A DNA stretch of 64,000 bases from the NCBI RefSeq assembly GCF_036038375.1, contig NZ_CP107935.1, positions 3,906,001-3,970,000 on the forward strand, in the 5' to 3' direction. Each line of letters starts with the position of its first letter. Positions within the stretch are counted from its first letter, which is position 1. The translations under genes and the position numbers were made by a program. This document shows positions 8,392 to 31,036 of this stretch, piece by piece. This stretch comes from Streptomyces sp. NBC_00414. GTDB taxonomy: Bacteria > Actinomycetota > Actinomycetes > Streptomycetales > Streptomycetaceae. The notes below the pieces were generated by a model. That model saw nothing but the letters and a program-made list of their open reading frames with translations, did not search any database and was not told where the DNA came from.

Positions 8392-10338
8392 ATGTCCGTG
8401 GTCGACCGGCAGGAGTGGGACGTCGTCGTGGTCGGTGCCGGAGGAGCCGGCCTGCGCGCGGCGATCGCGGCGCGGGAACGCGGCGCGCGTACGGCCGTCA
8501 TCTGCAAGTCGCTGTTCGGCAAGGCCCACACCGTGATGGCCGAGGGCGGCATCGCGGCGGCCATGGGCAACGTGAACTCCGGCGACAACTGGCAGGTCCA
8601 CTTCCGCGACACCATGCGCGGGGGCAAGTTCCTCAACCAGTGGCGGATGGCCGAGCTGCACGCCCAGGAGGCCCCCGACCGCGTGTGGGAGCTGGAGACC
8701 TGGGGCGCCCTCTTCGACCGTACGGCGGACGGGCGCATCTCCCAGCGCAACTTCGGCGGGCACGAGTACCCGCGGCTCGCACACGTCGGCGACCGTACGG
8801 GCCTGGAGCTGATCCGCACGCTCCAGCAGAAGATCGTGTCGCTCCAGCAGGAGGACTTCAAGGAGACCGGCGACTACGAGTCGCGCCTGAAGGTCTACCA
8901 GGAGTGCACGGTCACCCGGATCCTCAAGGAGGGCAGCCGGGTCTCCGGGGCCTTCTGCTACGCGCGGGAGTCCGGCCGCTTCTTCGTCCTCGACGCGCCC
9001 TCGGTCGTGGTCGCCACCGGCGGCATCGGCAAGTCCTTCAAGGTGACGTCGAACTCGTGGGAGTACACCGGCGACGGGCACGCGCTGGCGCTGCTCGCCG
9101 GGGCGCCGCTGCTGAACATGGAGTTCGTGCAGTTCCATCCGACGGGCATGGTCTGGCCGCCGTCCGTGAAGGGGATCCTCGTCACGGAGTCGGTGCGCGG
9201 GGACGGCGGGGTGCTCAGGAACTCCGAGGGCAAGCGGTTCATGTTCGAGTACATCCCGGACGTGTTCAAGGAGAAGTACGCGCAGTCCGAGGAGGAGGGC
9301 GACCGCTGGTACGAGGACCCGGACCACAACCGGCGCCCGCCCGAACTGCTCCCCCGCGACGAGGTGGCACGGGCCATCAACTCCGAGGTGAAGGCGGGCC
9401 GCGGCTCGCCCCACGGCGGTGTCTTCCTCGATGTCTCGACCCGGATGCCCGCCGAGGTGATCCGGCGCCGGCTGCCGTCCATGTACCACCAGTTCAAGGA
9501 ACTCGCGGACGTCGACATCACCGCCGAGGCGATGGAGGTCGGGCCGACCTGTCACTACGTGATGGGCGGGATCGCGGTCGAGTCGGACACCGCGGCGGCC
9601 CGCGGGGTGCCCGGCCTTTTCGCGGCCGGTGAGGTCGCGGGCGGCATGCACGGCTCCAACCGGCTCGGCGGGAACTCGCTCTCCGACCTGCTGGTGTTCG
9701 GGCGGCGGGCCGGACTGCACGCCGCTGAGTACGCCACCGGCCTCGCCGGGGTACGTCCTCTCGTGGACGACGCCGAGGTCGACGCCGCCGCCGCGGAGGC
9801 ACTGCGGCCCTTCTCCGCCGAGGGGCCCGCGCCCGGCGAGGTGGAGGACGGCCGGCCGGCGGAGAACCCGTACACCCTCCATCAGGAGCTCCAGCAGACG
9901 ATGAACGACCTCGTCGGCATCATCCGCCGGGAGGCGGAGATGGAGGCGGCCCTGGAGAAACTCGCGGACCTGCGGGTACGGGCCAGGCGGGCCGGGGTCG
10001 AGGGGCACCGGCAGTTCAACCCGGGCTGGCACCTCGCGCTGGACCTGCGGAACATGCTGCTCGTCAGCGAATGCGTGGCACGGGCCGCGCTGGAGCGCAC
10101 CGAGTCGCGCGGCGGCCACACCCGGGAGGACCACCCGGCGATGGACCGGCAGTGGCGGCGCGTCAACCTGCTCTGCCAACTGACCGATCCGACCGGCGGC
10201 CTGGCGGCGACCGACCCGGTGCACGGCCAGATCGACCTCGTCCGGGAGACCACCGAACCCATCCGACCCGACCTGCTCGCTCTCTTCGAGAAGGAAGAGC
10301 TGGTCAAGTACCTCGCCGAAGAGGAGCTCTACGAGTGA
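8392..10338 (+). CDS. sdhA: Succinate dehydrogenase/fumarate reductase flavoprotein subunit
   Basis: Catalytic FAD subunit of 648 aa that oxidises succinate to fumarate on the cytoplasmic side. The N-terminal dinucleotide fold reads VVGAGGAGLRAA, followed by AHTVMAEGGI, whose His is the expected covalent flavin attachment site. HPTG and RGDGG active-site segments are in the middle, and the fumarate reductase C-terminal domain closes the protein. I start at the ATG at 8392, which has AAAGG 9 nt upstream; a GTG three codons earlier overlaps that site. It overlaps the iron-sulfur subunit gene by GTGA. Length and organisation match mycobacterial Sdh1 (Rv0248c). Confidence 0.95.
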   Translation: MSVVDRQEWDVVVVGAGGAGLRAAIAARERGARTAVICKSLFGKAHTVMAEGGIAAAMGNVNSGDNWQVHFRDTMRGGKFLNQWRMAELHAQEAPDRVWELETWGALFDRTADGRISQRNFGGHEYPRLAHVGDRTGLELIRTLQQKIVSLQQEDFKETGDYESRLKVYQECTVTRILKEGSRVSGAFCYARESGRFFVLDAPSVVVATGGIGKSFKVTSNSWEYTGDGHALALLAGAPLLNMEFVQFHPTGMVWPPSVKGILVTESVRGDGGVLRNSEGKRFMFEYIPDVFKEKYAQSEEEGDRWYEDPDHNRRPPELLPRDEVARAINSEVKAGRGSPHGGVFLDVSTRMPAEVIRRRLPSMYHQFKELADVDITAEAMEVGPTCHYVMGGIAVESDTAAARGVPGLFAAGEVAGGMHGSNRLGGNSLSDLLVFGRRAGLHAAEYATGLAGVRPLVDDAEVDAAAAEALRPFSAEGPAPGEVEDGRPAENPYTLHQELQQTMNDLVGIIRREAEMEAALEKLADLRVRARRAGVEGHRQFNPGWHLALDLRNMLLVSECVARAALERTESRGGHTREDHPAMDRQWRRVNLLCQLTDPTGGLAATDPVHGQIDLVRETTEPIRPDLLALFEKEELVKYLAEEELYE

Positions 10339-26267: not shown

Positions 26268-26272
26268 CTAGA
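26243..26272. repeat. 15-bp tandem duplication over the rhomboid stop codon
   Basis: CTCGCGGGTCCTAGA occurs twice in direct tandem; the copy on the gene side includes the TAG stop of the rhomboid gene. It looks like a recent slippage or duplication scar. Confidence 0.75.
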
Positions 26273-26876
26273 TACGGGCGCCGCGCGGCCGTCGGAACGC
26301 GAAGGCCGCGACCACTCCGCCCAGCAGCCCGAAGAGATGTCCCTGCCAGCTGACCCCGGTCGCCGTCGGCAGTACGCCCCACAGGATCGAGCCGTACACC
26401 GCGCCGACGAGCAGTCCCACGACCACGTCACCGATGCGGCGGTCCACGAAGCCGCGGACCAGCAGGTAGCCGAAGAGACCGAACACGACACCGGAGGCGC
26501 CCGCGGTCAGGGAGTGTTCGGGCGCGGTGAGCCAGACGCCCAGGCCGCTGACGAGGACCGTCACGGTGACGACGGCGAGGAAGCGGCGGGTGCCGGACAG
26601 CGCGGTGAGGAAGCCGAGGACGAGCAGCGGCAGGCTGTTCGCCGCGAGATGGTCGAAGCCGAAGTGCAGGAAGGCGGCGGGCACGATGTCACGCAGCTCG
26701 CCGAACTCTCGCGGGGTGATGCCGAAGGTGTCCAGGGCGTGGCCGGTCACCGCGTCGATGCCCTCAAGCACCCACAGCAGGGCGACCCAGCCGCCCGTCA
26801 GCAGGGCCGCGCTCTTGGCCCGCTCACCGCGCGACACCGGGGCGGGCAGGCTCACACCGTGCGGTCCGTACGCCAT
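26268..26876 (-). CDS. Rhomboid-family intramembrane serine protease
   Basis: Six-helix intramembrane protease of 202 aa. Catalytic Ser128 is in GASG (126-129) and catalytic His180 is in WQGHLFG; the HFGFDHLAANS segment at 71-81 matches the oxyanion-site helix. It cleaves transmembrane segments of unknown substrates. AGGAGG lies 5 nt before the ATG. It starts a cluster in which two CPBP-family intramembrane proteases and a two-component system follow within 4 kb. Confidence 0.92.
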   Translation of the reverse strand: MAYGPHGVSLPAPVSRGERAKSAALLTGGWVALLWVLEGIDAVTGHALDTFGITPREFGELRDIVPAAFLHFGFDHLAANSLPLLVLGFLTALSGTRRFLAVVTVTVLVSGLGVWLTAPEHSLTAGASGVVFGLFGYLLVRGFVDRRIGDVVVGLLVGAVYGSILWGVLPTATGVSWQGHLFGLLGGVVAAFAFRRPRGARI

Positions 26877-27115
26877 GAAGACCTCCTGACGGCCCTTGGG
26901 CGCCCACGCGTCGGGTACCGCTGTGTACCGCTCAACGCGCGGGAGGCTCCCCCCGGTTCCCGCCCGCGGTGCCCCTCGGCCCCGGTCGCGCGCGGCTGTC
27001 CCCCGTCCGAGCTACGCGCAGGTGTCCACCGAGCGGTGACGATTCCCGGTCCACGGATCCATAGCTTTCTACCCAGCCCGCGGCGCTCCGGCCGCGACCT
27101 GGAGTAGGAGTTCTG

Positions 27116-27952
27116 ATGAGGCTGGTCCGGCAACTCGTGGCCGTCGCGGCGGTCGCTTTCATCGGCGGTCAGGGAGTCACCGCGGCGAAGGGCGAACCGT
27201 GGCTCCAACTGGCCATCGGGATACCGGCGGCCGTGCTCGCGGTGTTCGTCTACCGGTGGGTGGTGGGGCGCACCGAGCGGCGCCCGGTCACCGAACTGGC
27301 CCTGGAGGGCGCCCCCGCCGCGCTGGGCCGCGGAACACTGATCGGCGTCGCGCTGTTCGGGGCAGTCATCGTGAACCTCTTCACCTCCGGGTACTACGAG
27401 GTCGACGGCCTGCACCCGGTGACGGGCGCGGTGGGTCTGCTCGGCTTCATGGCCGCCGCCGCGGTGACGGAGGAACTGGTCTTCCGCGGCGTCCTGTTCC
27501 GTGTCACCGAGGAACACACCGGTACCTGGATCGCGCTGCTGCTGACCGGCACGCTGTTCGGCCTGTCGCATCTGCTCAATCCGAACGCCTCCGTGTGGGG
27601 CGCCGCCGCCATCGCCGTCGAGGCGGGCGGCATGCTCACCGCCGCGTACGTCGCCACCCGAAGCCTGTGGCTGCCCATCGGCCTGCACTTCGGCTGGAAC
27701 TTCGCCGCGTCCGGCATCTTCAGTACCGAGGTCTCGGGCAACGACACCCCGCCGGGGCTGCTGGACTCCTCGATGTCGGGCCCGTCGCCGCTCACCGGCG
27801 GCGACTTCGGCCCGGAGGGAAGCGTGTACTCGGTGCTGTTCGGCGTGCTGACGACGATCGCCTTCATGTGGCTGGCCCGCCGGCGCGGCCATGTGGTGCC
27901 CCGTGGCGGGCGCGCCGATCGGGCCGGCACCACCGCTACACTCCCCCGATGA
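27116..27952 (+). CDS. CPBP family intramembrane glutamic endopeptidase (copy 1)
   Basis: Polytopic membrane protein of 278 aa in the CAAX-protease/bacteriocin-processing (Abi) family. Catalytic motif 1 is EELVFRG (Glu119, Glu120, Arg124), with His152 in SHLLNP and His191 in LHFGWNF. GGAG lies 6 nt before the ATG. Its stop overlaps the histidine kinase start (ATGA), so it is probably transcribed with the two-component system. The second half is closely similar to the CPBP protein at 29965-30894 (LWLPIGLHFGWNF shared exactly). Substrate unknown. Confidence 0.92.
   Translation: MRLVRQLVAVAAVAFIGGQGVTAAKGEPWLQLAIGIPAAVLAVFVYRWVVGRTERRPVTELALEGAPAALGRGTLIGVALFGAVIVNLFTSGYYEVDGLHPVTGAVGLLGFMAAAAVTEELVFRGVLFRVTEEHTGTWIALLLTGTLFGLSHLLNPNASVWGAAAIAVEAGGMLTAAYVATRSLWLPIGLHFGWNFAASGIFSTEVSGNDTPPGLLDSSMSGPSPLTGGDFGPEGSVYSVLFGVLTTIAFMWLARRRGHVVPRGGRADRAGTTATLPR
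27937..27942 (+). promoter_or_regulatory. Leaderless -10 hexamer of the histidine kinase, inside the upstream gene
   Basis: TACACT, then CCCCCG, then the ATG at 27949. The kinase start has no Shine-Dalgarno sequence, so an internal promoter is plausible in addition to coupling through ATGA. Confidence 0.4.
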
Positions 27953-29199
27953 TCGGGATGATCAGCCTGCGGCGGGCCCCGCAGTGGTGGCGGCAGGCCC
28001 CGGAACGGTGGCGGCGGGCCCCGAAGTGGTGGCGCCGGGCCGACGTCACGACCCGGGATCTTCCGCTCGGGCTGTTGTGTCTCGCGCTGTCGTTCCTGCC
28101 CGACTTCCACGGGACGCAGATCGGCGGCCTGCCGAACCGCCCCTTCGACGGCCTGGCCCTGGTGGCGGTCGCCCTGGAAAGCCTGCCGCTCGCCGTGCGC
28201 CGCCGGTGGCCCGTCGTCTGTCTCGCCCTGGTGTCGGCCGGCTTCGCCGTGGACCAGCTCCGCGGCTACCACGCGTTCGCGGGCACCGCGCTGCCGATCG
28301 CGCTGCTGAGCGCGGGGGCCCACCTGCGACGGTACCGGCGTACCGCCGCGGTCGTCTTCTCCGTGGCGTACGTGCCGTTGGCGGTCGCGTTCTCCCGGGT
28401 CGTCCAGGGCGAGCCGGGTGAGCCGCCGAGCGAGCTGGTGACGTTCTATCTGGCGCTGGTCCTGGCGTGGGGGCTCGGGGCGTGGCTGCACTCCACCCGG
28501 GTCGCGAACGCCGAACACCGGCTGCGTATCGCCGAGGACACCCGCGCCACCGAACGCGCCCGCATCGCACGCGAGTTGCACGACGTCGTGACCCATCACG
28601 TGACGGCGATGGTCGTACAGGCCGAGGCCGCGCGCTATCTCACCGCCTCGCCGGAACGCCTCGACCAGTCCCTGACGGCCGTCACCGACACCGGGCGGCG
28701 GGCCATCACCGATCTGCGGCACCTGCTCGACCTGCTCAACCCCGACCACGGCACAGGCACAGGCACCGGCGCCGGCCAGGGCGCCGGTCACGCCCCCGGG
28801 GCGAGGACGCCGCCCGTCGGCAGGCTGCTCACGCTCGTGGAGCGGACGCGCCAGGCAGGGCAGCCGGTGGAGTTCACCGAGGAGGGCACCCCGGCGGAGT
28901 CGACCGGCAGCGCGGAACTCGTCGCGTACCGGGTCGTGCAGGAAGCCCTGACCAACGCACTCAAATACGCTCACGGCAGCCGCACCTCGGTCCGGGTGCG
29001 GTACACCGAAAGGGAGATCACCGTGGAGGTCGGTACGGACGGTGCCGGCTCGGGGGCCGGGTCCCCCGGCGGGAGCGGGCGGGGACTCGCCGGTCTCCGC
29101 GAGCGGGTCGACGTCCTGGGCGGCGACTTCAGCGCGGGCCCGCGGCCGGCCGGCGGCTTCGTCGTACGGGCGCGCATACCCGCGGGGAGCCCTTCGTGA
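27949..29199 (+). CDS. Sensor histidine kinase (HisKA_3/NarL-type partner)
   Basis: Membrane kinase of 416 aa. An N-terminal cytoplasmic stretch repeats an AP-x-WWR unit (res 10-30), then about four membrane helices (38-180) lead to a HisKA_3 dimerisation domain with phosphorylated His211 (RELHDVVTHHVTAMV) and a HATPase domain (LTNALKYA, GRGLAGLRERV). It overlaps the response regulator start by GTGA and the CPBP stop by ATGA. No extracellular sensor domain is visible, so it may sense through its membrane part or through the CPBP protease (inference). Confidence 0.92.
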   Translation: MIGMISLRRAPQWWRQAPERWRRAPKWWRRADVTTRDLPLGLLCLALSFLPDFHGTQIGGLPNRPFDGLALVAVALESLPLAVRRRWPVVCLALVSAGFAVDQLRGYHAFAGTALPIALLSAGAHLRRYRRTAAVVFSVAYVPLAVAFSRVVQGEPGEPPSELVTFYLALVLAWGLGAWLHSTRVANAEHRLRIAEDTRATERARIARELHDVVTHHVTAMVVQAEAARYLTASPERLDQSLTAVTDTGRRAITDLRHLLDLLNPDHGTGTGTGAGQGAGHAPGARTPPVGRLLTLVERTRQAGQPVEFTEEGTPAESTGSAELVAYRVVQEALTNALKYAHGSRTSVRVRYTEREITVEVGTDGAGSGAGSPGGSGRGLAGLRERVDVLGGDFSAGPRPAGGFVVRARIPAGSPS

Positions 29200-29882
29200 C
29201 CGCACCCGTGACGGCACCCGCGACCTCACCGATCCGGGTCCTGGTCTGCGACGACCAGGTACTGATCCGCACCGGCCTGGTGACGATCATCGACGCCCAG
29301 CCCGACCTGGAGGTGGCGGGCGAATGCGGGGACGGCCGGGCCGCGGTCGACCTCGCCGCCCGGGTGCGCCCGGACGTCGTGGTGATGGACGTACGCATGC
29401 CGGTGCTCGACGGCATCGAGGCCACCCGCCTGCTGGCCGGCGCCGGGGTGCCGCATCCCGTCAAGGTCCTCGTGGTGACCACGTTCAACCTGGACGAGTA
29501 CGTGTACGAGGCGCTGCGCGCGGGGGCGAGCGGCTTCCTCCTCAAGGACGCGCCCCCGGCCCAACTCCTGCACGGGATCAGGACGGTGGGCGCGGGCGCG
29601 GCCCTGCTGGACCCCGAGGTGACCCGCCGGCTGGTCGGCAGGTACGCGGCCCGTATCCGCCCCGCCGACAGCGGCGCTCCGCAGGACGTCCCGCTGACAC
29701 CGCGCGAGCTGGAGGTCCTGCGCCTCATCGCGAACGGCCTCTCCAACAGCGAGATCGCCGCGACCCTCGTGATCAGCCCGGAGACGGTCAAGACCTTCGT
29801 CTCCCGCATCCTCGCGAAGCTCAACCTGCGCGACCGGGTCCAGGCGGTCGTCTACGCGTACCGCCAGGGACTGGTGACCTGA
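29196..29882 (+). CDS. NarL/FixJ-type response regulator
   Basis: Two-domain regulator of 228 aa. The receiver has phospho-acceptor Asp65 (VVMDVRMP) with acidic residues in VLVCDDQ and Lys in LLKDAPP. The LuxR-type HTH near 160-220 reads LTPRELEVLRLIANG and NSEIAATLVISPETVKTFVSRI. The GTG start overlaps the kinase stop. It is the partner of the upstream kinase; target genes may include the two neighbouring CPBP genes (inference). A strong hairpin terminator follows. Confidence 0.94.
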   Translation: MTAPVTAPATSPIRVLVCDDQVLIRTGLVTIIDAQPDLEVAGECGDGRAAVDLAARVRPDVVVMDVRMPVLDGIEATRLLAGAGVPHPVKVLVVTTFNLDEYVYEALRAGASGFLLKDAPPAQLLHGIRTVGAGAALLDPEVTRRLVGRYAARIRPADSGAPQDVPLTPRELEVLRLIANGLSNSEIAATLVISPETVKTFVSRILAKLNLRDRVQAVVYAYRQGLVT

Positions 29883-29893
29883 GGCCGTACGAC

Positions 29894-29931
29894 GTGAGGG
29901 GCGCCCACGGACTTCCGTGGGCGCCCCTCAC
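29894..29931. terminator. Bidirectional terminator between response regulator and CPBP gene
   Basis: Perfect 17-bp stem (29894-29910 with 29915-29931) and a 4-nt ACTT loop in the middle of an 82-bp convergent gap. It can serve both strands. Confidence 0.8.
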
Positions 29932-29964
29932 TTGCGGTGGCCGGGGTCCGCGGCCCCGGTGGGG

Positions 29965-30894
29965 TCAGGACGAGGCGGACGTCCCCGCGGACCGGAGCTG
30001 GTGGCGCGTGCAGAGGCGTCCCCGGCGCTTGGCCAGGCGCAGGAACACGACCGTGGGGACGGTGCAGACGAGGATGGCGAAGATGCTGGCCTCCGGTCCG
30101 AAGCCGCCTCCGGTGATCGCCTCGGGGCCCGACAGGACACCGTGGAGCAGGCCGGTGGGCTGGTCCTCGTTGCCGGAGACCGTGACGCCGAAGATGCCGC
30201 TCAGGGCGAAGTTCCAGCCGAAGTGCAGGCCGATCGGCAGCCACAGCGTGCGGGTGGCTGCGTAGACGGCGCCGAGCATCAGACCGGCCTCGACGGCGAT
30301 GGCCAGCGCGCCCCACACGGTGGCACCGGAGTTGACCAGGTGAAGGCCCCCGAACAGCAGGCCCGAGATCACCATCGCGCCCCGCGTACCGGCGAGTTCC
30401 TCGACGAGGCGGAAGATGATGCCGCGGAAGAGGATCTCCTCGACGACCGCGACCCCCGCCATCATCCCGAGGACGGTCACCGCGCCGCCGACGGACACCC
30501 CGCCCTTCGTGCCGTATCCGCCGAACAGGGCGATCAGCGCGAGAGTCGCGACGAAGAGTCCGAGGCCGGTGGCGGCGCCGACGCGCAGGCCGGACGCGGC
30601 CACGGTGGTGTCCAGCTCGACGGCGGGGCGCTGTTCGAGGATCCGTACCGCCGCCGCGTACACCGTCAGGGCGAGCACGGCGGCTGCCGCGCCGAACAGC
30701 AGGGACAGCACCGGGTTGTCGCCCGCCACGCTCCTCATCCCCGCGGCGAGGCCCGTCACCAGGACGAACAGCACCACCATGACCACCAGCCGCACGCCGG
30801 CCGGCCACACCCTGCGCGTGCGCGTCGGCTCGAACGGTGTCCGCGAGTACTGGTCCTTGACCCACCGCACTGCCTGCGTGTTCCAGAGCGACAT
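29965..30894 (-). CDS. CPBP family intramembrane glutamic endopeptidase (copy 2)
   Basis: Polytopic protease of 309 aa with motif EEILFRG (Glu152, Glu153, Arg157), His185 (LHLVNS) and His224 (LHFGWNF). It is a paralogue of the CPBP protein at 27116-27952; the regions TLWLPIGLHFGWNF, SGIFG and TGGGFGPE are shared. It faces the two-component operon across a shared terminator. I chose the ATG at 30894 with a weak GGGA 7 nt upstream; earlier ATGs at 30906 and 30936 lack any ribosome site. Target protein unknown. Confidence 0.9.
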   Translation of the reverse strand: MSLWNTQAVRWVKDQYSRTPFEPTRTRRVWPAGVRLVVMVVLFVLVTGLAAGMRSVAGDNPVLSLLFGAAAAVLALTVYAAAVRILEQRPAVELDTTVAASGLRVGAATGLGLFVATLALIALFGGYGTKGGVSVGGAVTVLGMMAGVAVVEEILFRGIIFRLVEELAGTRGAMVISGLLFGGLHLVNSGATVWGALAIAVEAGLMLGAVYAATRTLWLPIGLHFGWNFALSGIFGVTVSGNEDQPTGLLHGVLSGPEAITGGGFGPEASIFAILVCTVPTVVFLRLAKRRGRLCTRHQLRSAGTSASS

Positions 30895-31036
30895 GACGTT
30901 TCCCATCGTCGACCGGCGGCCCGGCCGCCCCTGCATCTGGGGAAACGCTATGAGCGGGACCCACTCCGGAACGTCCCGCCGGGGTGGGCATTGCTTGTCG
31001 CTCGCGTGGGGGACAACGGGGCGCCGCCGCCGACGA

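Follow-up and report, generated by a model that had tools for sequence, protein, structure and literature searches.

To our knowledge, most bacterial intramembrane proteases of the CPBP (Abi) family have no known substrate or trigger. Links between Abi proteins and sensor kinases are already known, as in Staphylococcus aureus, where WalR controls SpdC, which in turn acts on the kinase WalK (PMC5854430), and in group B Streptococcus, where the CPBP/Abi protein Abx1 controls the kinase CovS without catalysis (PMC3578759). In S. coelicolor, NarL-family pairs such as AbrA and AbsA are composed of a classic kinase and a NarL-type regulator, in the order kinase then regulator (PMC9739842). Here we consider a 64,000-nucleotide stretch of Streptomyces sp. 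NBC_00414 (contig NZ_CP107935.1, positions 3,906,001 to 3,970,000; hereafter the window), in which a CPBP gene, CPBP-A, precedes a histidine kinase and a NarL-type response regulator and lies behind a long conserved element that is a putative promoter/operator. With a probability of roughly 0.6, this feature is likely to be an autoregulated envelope-response two-component cassette with a membrane-surface hydrolase as its main output. New findings are the element together with the set of genes that it apparently targets, and the exchange of the CPBP partner for another enzyme. A term search of the main text of the review PMC9739842 recovered neither CAAX nor CPBP, and the matches listed for literature on CPBP/CAAX, Streptomyces and two-component systems contained, by title or start of abstract, no description of such a cassette.

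The conserved three-gene unit and its promoter element

Scanning a species-level genome collection with CPBP-A recovered 204 relatives, the best 80 loci of which were examined. In all 80, matches to the kinase and the regulator lie directly downstream of the CPBP gene on the same strand, with regulators that are 79-98% identical. The stop codon of the CPBP gene overlaps the kinase start in 79 loci (GTGA in 64 and ATGA in 15), the exception, L073, having a one-base overlap, and the kinase match is in frame with the overlapping start in 78 (all except L018 and L075). In the window the corresponding overlap is ATGA, and kinase and regulator overlap by GTGA; the ATGA junction pointed out by the first-pass annotation of this DNA is thereby confirmed as part of a fixed unit. 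The loci span Streptomycetaceae to Micromonosporaceae, Nocardiaceae and Ruaniaceae, with Streptomyces, Kitasatospora, Pseudonocardia, Amycolatopsis, Goodfellowiella, Nonomuraea, Microbispora, Sphaerisporangium, Glycomyces, Rhodococcus, Nocardiopsis, Actinorugispora, Micromonospora, Nucisporomicrobium and Occultella among the genera. Similarly, a class-wide draw of 148 genomes contained the regulator at 82% or more in 10, with CPBP-A adjacent in nine of these; in the tenth, G131, only a short remnant of a CPBP-like start remains at the kinase-regulator pair, and a hydrolase gene is preceded by a second element, which is divergent.

The surroundings of the unit vary. The most frequent flanking gene family occurs in at most eight of the 80 loci (four genes per side, simple gene caller). 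A rhomboid gene adjoins the cassette in two, a count to which L008, L035 and L049 may contribute misses as they end less than 1 kb upstream, and the second CPBP gene of the window, CPBP-B, has an adjoining counterpart in three, one of them cut by a contig end. Because the order is fixed in 80 of 80 loci while the flanks vary, the conserved unit consists of three genes (CPBP-A, the DUF7134 kinase and the NarL-type regulator), not five, and occurs in many contexts. The first-pass annotation had described five genes clustered within 4.6 kb, and all of them are present where it placed them, with matches to the respective family profiles; the gene order that it proposed to look for in other genomes is kept for the three cassette genes, and for neither the rhomboid nor CPBP-B. 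A wider operon with a substrate gene was rejected on the flanking-family counts, and the rhomboid was rejected as a cassette member on its adjacency count. No natural CPBP-kinase fusion occurs among the 80 loci. Two irregular loci were observed: in L067 (Streptomyces violaceorubidus, 8840-9342) about 500 bases separate CPBP and regulator and match only a kinase fragment, and in L196 (genome G228) about 1.4 kb of extra DNA, possibly an insertion, lies between CPBP and kinase.

The protease residues E119, E120, R124, F148, H152, H191 and N195 are present in 82 of 82 sequences (the 80 loci, CPBP-A and CPBP-B), and the EExxxR, FxxxH and HxxxN motifs of the CPBP family are all found. This subfamily additionally displays a conserved SGN...GLL...GP..TGG.FGPE.S stretch after HxxxN. 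The structure model of CPBP-A (predicted local distance difference test score, pLDDT, 91.2) has SpdC (6u0o) as its top solved structure, with a Foldseek probability of 1.00, E 0.011 and a template-modelling (TM) score of 0.52, and matches Rce1 (PDB 4cad) with probability 0.99, E 0.038 and TM 0.41; no Foldseek match of the model reached E 0.001.

The kinase had initially been described as lacking a sensor domain. This holds for an extracytoplasmic domain: in the AlphaFold model, a weak one (pLDDT 73.7), helices long enough to span the membrane are joined by short loops, and no outer domain is seen. It does not hold for the membrane region itself, which is a polytopic DUF7134 region. In an alignment of 77 kinases (L008, L018, L067 and L075 were dropped, their frames being broken or cut), G55, T56, G59, D67, F99, D102, Q103, Y107 and H108, situated in or near the first two loops, are among the positions conserved at 95% or more, because of which this region is likely to be the sensor of the kinase.

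The promoter element is an array of boxes about 70 bp long (Table 1). Its boxes GTCCCCC, GAGCTAC, TGTCC and GGTGACG keep a fixed spacing in 79 of the 80 upstream regions compared, namely the window and 250 bases from each of 79 loci; L019 is without the element. Because the alignment of sites was anchored on GTCCC, these five bases are invariant by construction; none of the 79 sites deviates at the T or the A of GAGCTAC, and most other box positions are kept in at least 72. A hexamer, TAGCNT, lies about 17 bases after the boxes; in the window it is the -10-like TAGCTT at 27062-27067, and the first base of the element lies 118 bases from the cassette start codon. A 48-column matrix gives the window site 76.6 bits, compared with -27.8 bits or less for the top-scoring sites of five shuffled windows; one of the 79 element sites scores poorly (-8.9 bits). 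Across the 10.35-Mb genome of the window the cassette element is the only match at up to two mismatches; further sites were rejected, as 11 matches at three mismatches against 9 in the reversed control amount to chance. Viral contigs searched for the element yielded no exact match. The CCGCGG inverted repeat (Table 1) is perhaps a DNA operator; a structured RNA leader formed from it was rejected, RNAalifold having predicted no pairs for 45 sequences chosen from the 80.

Co-occurrence with the regulator and exchange of the partner enzyme

In a survey of 295 Streptomyces genomes (regulator criterion E up to 1e-98), 56 exact elements were recovered in 42 genomes and the regulator in 48. The full regulator is present in 41 of the 42 element-bearing genomes, and in the remaining one, G217, an 86% fragment of it lies where the contig ends. 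A further 246 genomes have neither (Fisher 1e-41, which, like the other p value given below, is indicative only, since the genomes are related and independence is overstated). Sixteen exact elements, spread over 13 genomes, are not at the kinase-regulator locus; all 13 of these genomes have the regulator. Sites with two mismatches were not counted as evidence, the reversed control having given many matches at up to two mismatches; the only control for the exact sites is their absence from the 246 regulator-less genomes. Taken together, the element and this co-occurrence suggest that CPBP-A is under the control of its own two-component system.

The targets were surveyed at 55 fetched exact sites and the window, and at five of 11 one-mismatch sites. 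Of the 56 exact elements, 36 have a gene for a CPBP protein as the first gene after them, 18 one for a secreted alpha/beta-hydrolase and two another gene. Behind the 55 fetched sites lie CPBP-kinase-regulator units (31), hydrolase-kinase-regulator units (6), the hydrolase alone (10) or beside the pair (2), and a CPBP gene without a kinase-regulator pair (4, three of them about 40% and one 68% identical); in L217 a copy of the CPBP-A type stands alone behind the element. The five one-mismatch sites precede a cassette (L241), a TAP-like secreted hydrolase (L243), a broken hydrolase start (L240) and, in two cases, nothing clear. Two further one-mismatch sites (G149 and G167, by coordinates) precede kinase-regulator pairs without an enzyme gene in front. 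Certain sites have unusual genes behind them. Exact elements in L214, L227 and L229 are followed by a lone CPBP gene from a distant subfamily (about 40% identical), suggestive of an independent recruitment. L201 (G303, 1693-2817) has a PrmA-like methyltransferase gene unlike the other targets behind an exact element, and L224 (G261, 1808-2500) has a gene for a DUF4232 protein about 300 bases past one.

The hydrolase is a protein of about 300 residues (Abhydrolase_1, E 1.5e-16 for that of L200) with an N-terminal hydrophobic stretch, and several versions contain an LVGC that, judged by eye, is lipobox-like. At the 48 Streptomyces regulators the gene before the kinase is a CPBP in 38, the hydrolase in six and neither directly in four. 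CPBP-A occurs in 38 of the 295 genomes, all 38 of which have the regulator; in two further genomes, G190 and G393, the CPBP-B type alone is present. The hydrolase occurs in 25 genomes, 20 of them with the full regulator. It is present in 10 of 10 regulator genomes without CPBP-A versus 10 of 38 with it (p 2.8e-5), and none of the 48 has neither enzyme. In the window genome no orthologue of the hydrolase was found, the best match having E 1.2e-10.

A tree of kinase plus regulator was built from 102 rows, namely 76 cassette rows including the window and 26 chosen rows, which are not every locus of the genus; L008, L018, L067 and L075 (frames broken or cut) and L063 (regulator start not at the kinase stop) were dropped. 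Even on its well-supported branches the hydrolase arrangement needs at least two origins, and the early-branching rows have a CPBP partner, except for the remnant in G131. Six hydrolase-partnered kinases match the window kinase at 24 of 25 checked positions, and the change at the 25th is also found in a CPBP-partnered relative. Because the hydrolase replaces the CPBP while these kinase positions stay nearly the same, the CPBP is unlikely to be needed for signal reception.

CPBP-B, sister systems and other features of the locus

Table 1. Features of the cassette locus, in window coordinates.
Feature	Position	Strand	Description
Rhomboid-family gene	26268-26876	-	PF01694 E 1.5e-27; divergent neighbour, outside the conserved unit
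Conserved promoter/operator element (putative)	26998-27067	+	GTCCCCC-N4-GAGCTAC-N7-TGTCCAC-N5-GGTGACGATT-N17-TAGCNT, about 70 bp
Inverted repeat	27078-27096	+	CCGCGG-N8-CCGCG; near the expected transcription start; common in relatives
CPBP-A, CPBP/Rce1-like (Abi) intramembrane protease	27116-27952	+	Cassette gene 1; PF02517 E 9.6e-19
Histidine kinase	27949-29199	+	Cassette gene 2; DUF7134 E 6.5e-8, HisKA_3 E 7.1e-18, HATPase_c E 1.3e-10
NarL/LuxR-family response regulator	29196-29882	+	Cassette gene 3; Response_reg and GerE domains
CPBP-B, second CPBP protease	29965-30894	-	PF02517 E 1.7e-18; convergent to the cassette, lineage-specific
Degenerate element variant before CPBP-B	30945-31014	-	GTCCCCC-N4-GAGCGAC-N6-TGCCCAC ... 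TAGCGT

CPBP-A and CPBP-B score 67.9 and 67.1 bits against PF02517, the curated cut-off being 22.4, and the domain make-up of kinase (HisKA_3, HATPase_c) and regulator (receiver-GerE) fits two-component systems of the NarL/LuxR type. The NCBIfam matches listed for the five proteins are all below their cut-offs. A scan of phage and defence libraries gave for CPBP-B only one weak PHROG of unknown function (E 9.3e-4), and its two further matches are both confined to the DNA-binding domain of the regulator. The region 26877-27115 is a divergent intergenic region common to the rhomboid gene and the cassette, an adjacency seen in only two close relatives.

Four CPBP genes score above the family cut-off in the genome, and the domains of two of them lie 2.8 kb apart at this locus. 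With random placement of four positions two fall within 3 kb in 0.36% of trials, and the pairing is thus more than chance. The start of CPBP-B at 30894 is preferred, its ATG and the sequence preceding it being kept in L001 and L002, though longer in-frame starts exist. CPBP-B is preceded by a variant of the element with the same box order and distance to the hexamer as the cassette element, and with a distance to the ATG of 120 nt versus 118 nt; L001 and L002 share about 50 bases of this variant with the window, but not the sequence upstream of it. The 15-base core of the element occurs twice in the window, at both promoters (0.28 expected; one of 100 shuffles reached two).

CPBP-B is 50% identical to CPBP-A over 232 residues. 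An origin as a local duplicate of CPBP-A was rejected, as it falls in a separate clade beside the CPBPs of sister systems; the window CPBP-B groups with that of L313 (support 99/100), the wider B clade being less sure (89/88). The regulators of these sister systems are 64-74% identical and have more distant kinases. Six loci were examined, and a B-clade CPBP lies beside the pair in four: downstream in L313, L134 and L135, and divergent in L314. L136, the second system of the window genome itself, and L137 have no CPBP beside the pair. An element with one mismatch lies directly before the CPBP in L313, a match at five mismatches lies between CPBP and kinase in L314, and L134 and L135 show only resemblances by eye; L136 and L137 have no strict element pattern up to five mismatches. 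In sequence comparison the recognition helix, at what we take to be its position in these regulators, is nearly identical between the sister and window regulators. Phylogenetic placement and these neighborhoods point to a sister system as the probable source of CPBP-B, and CPBP and kinase may have been partners before the cassette arose.

Function of the cassette and comparison with known systems

We infer binding of the regulator to the element, activation, the substrate, the signal and the feedback along the following lines. The kinase would detect a signal in or at the membrane by means of its polytopic membrane domain, and the phosphorylated regulator would bind the element and activate its own operon headed by CPBP-A, probably also driving CPBP-B from the variant element in this genome. 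The CPBP protein would mainly serve as output: as an active membrane peptidase it would act on what causes the signal or on what results from it, and it may also damp the kinase as feedback, for which SpdC and Abx1 are precedents. In other Streptomyces the secreted, lipoprotein-like alpha/beta-hydrolase might form a second or substitute output of the regulator. Since certain relatives swap the protease for an unrelated hydrolase, comparison of these genomes indicates that CPBP-A is more likely to be switched on by the circuit than to feed it.

Several observations weigh against this interpretation. Seven of the 48 regulator genomes have no exact element, five of the 25 hydrolase genomes (one of them G217) have no full regulator, and a lone CPBP-A copy in L133 has no element before it; the relatedness of the genomes has already been pointed out. 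The degenerate variant before CPBP-B does not reach the threshold of the 48-column matrix, and in five of the six sister loci the strict pattern is at best found at five mismatches (L314) or absent up to five. Only two swaps are forced, and this on a quick tree with Shimodaira-Hasegawa-like approximate likelihood-ratio test (SH-aLRT) support and no bootstrap. Where neither enzyme precedes the kinase, two or three of the 25 checked positions are changed, and of all kinase membrane domains compared, those of the partnerless L272 and L274 are the most diverged (52% to the window); loss of the CPBP may hence not be neutral for the kinase. Finally, the translational coupling of CPBP and kinase is expected of a physical partner and not needed for a plain output.

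This last point leads to a rather doubtful alternative, compatible with an autoregulated cassette, in which CPBP-A is chiefly a membrane partner that sets the kinase/phosphatase balance, its protease activity being perhaps irrelevant. The fixed adjacency and the A/GTGA overlap suit a stoichiometric complex, and the closest solved fold is that of SpdC, which belongs to the WalR regulon and interacts with WalK (PMC5854430), while Abx1 binds CovS and does not need its catalytic residues to function (PMC3578759). However, 10 of the 48 regulator genomes dispense with CPBP-A, the hydrolase-partnered kinases are nearly unchanged at the checked positions, the lone copy in L217 is placed behind the element, and a purely structural role does not require catalytic residues that are invariant in every sequence compared. 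The same absences and the same unchanged kinase residues speak against the proposal of the first-pass annotation that the locus is a dedicated module of three proteases, in which cleavage of the kinase or its ligand is part of signal input. The physical clustering and the conserved CPBP-A part are in its favor; nevertheless, the rhomboid and CPBP-B adjoin the cassette too rarely, which largely refutes it for the rhomboid, and with the pair retained where CPBP-A is replaced (six genomes have the hydrolase in its place) or absent we regard it as highly improbable.

Two further proposals concern what the enzymes might destroy. CPBP/Abi genes occur in bacteriocin immunity loci, and it is tentatively possible, as a special case of the envelope-response cassette, that the unit confers resistance or immunity against a membrane-active peptide or lipopeptide, with the kinase sensing the compound and the CPBP or the hydrolase destroying it. 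This would go with its patchy distribution (48 of 295 Streptomyces genomes), its self-contained nature in many contexts and the two unrelated surface hydrolases as alternative outputs; against it, no flanking gene family exceeds eight loci, a figure obtained without a search for antibiotic gene clusters. More specifically, though it is unlikely, CPBP and hydrolase, though non-homologous, might be interchangeable, both destroying whatever ligand or lesion the one kinase senses and so forming a signal-erasing loop in which the effector was swapped and sensor, regulator and operator remained fixed.

Across many actinobacterial families, this CPBP subfamily goes together with one particular kinase-regulator pair and with a long conserved promoter element, and trigger, binding site and target set thereby become jointly testable. 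The hydrolase swap offers a route to the substrate, as something that both enzymes could remove.

These architectures can be compared with those of the known systems. CPBP-A resembles Rce1 and other CPBP proteases (PF02517, 4cad) in family, EExxxR/FxxxH/HxxxN motifs and fold; unlike for Rce1, no CAAX substrate is known for the cassette CPBP. Among the kinase-associated Abi systems, abx1 is found outside the covRS operon, WalR is an OmpR-type regulator and WalK has an outer domain. The present locus further differs from Abx1-CovSR in its fixed cassette and shared promoter element, neither of which is described in the available part of PMC3578759. It is reminiscent of SpdC-WalKR in that a CPBP/Abi protein is tied to a two-component system, the SpdC fold being the nearest solved one to CPBP-A. 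However, spdC lies outside the walRKHI operon (PMC5854430), whereas here the CPBP gene comes first in an operon with a NarL-type pair, and, unlike SpdC-WalKR, this cassette combines conserved catalytic residues with an alternative hydrolase in some genomes.

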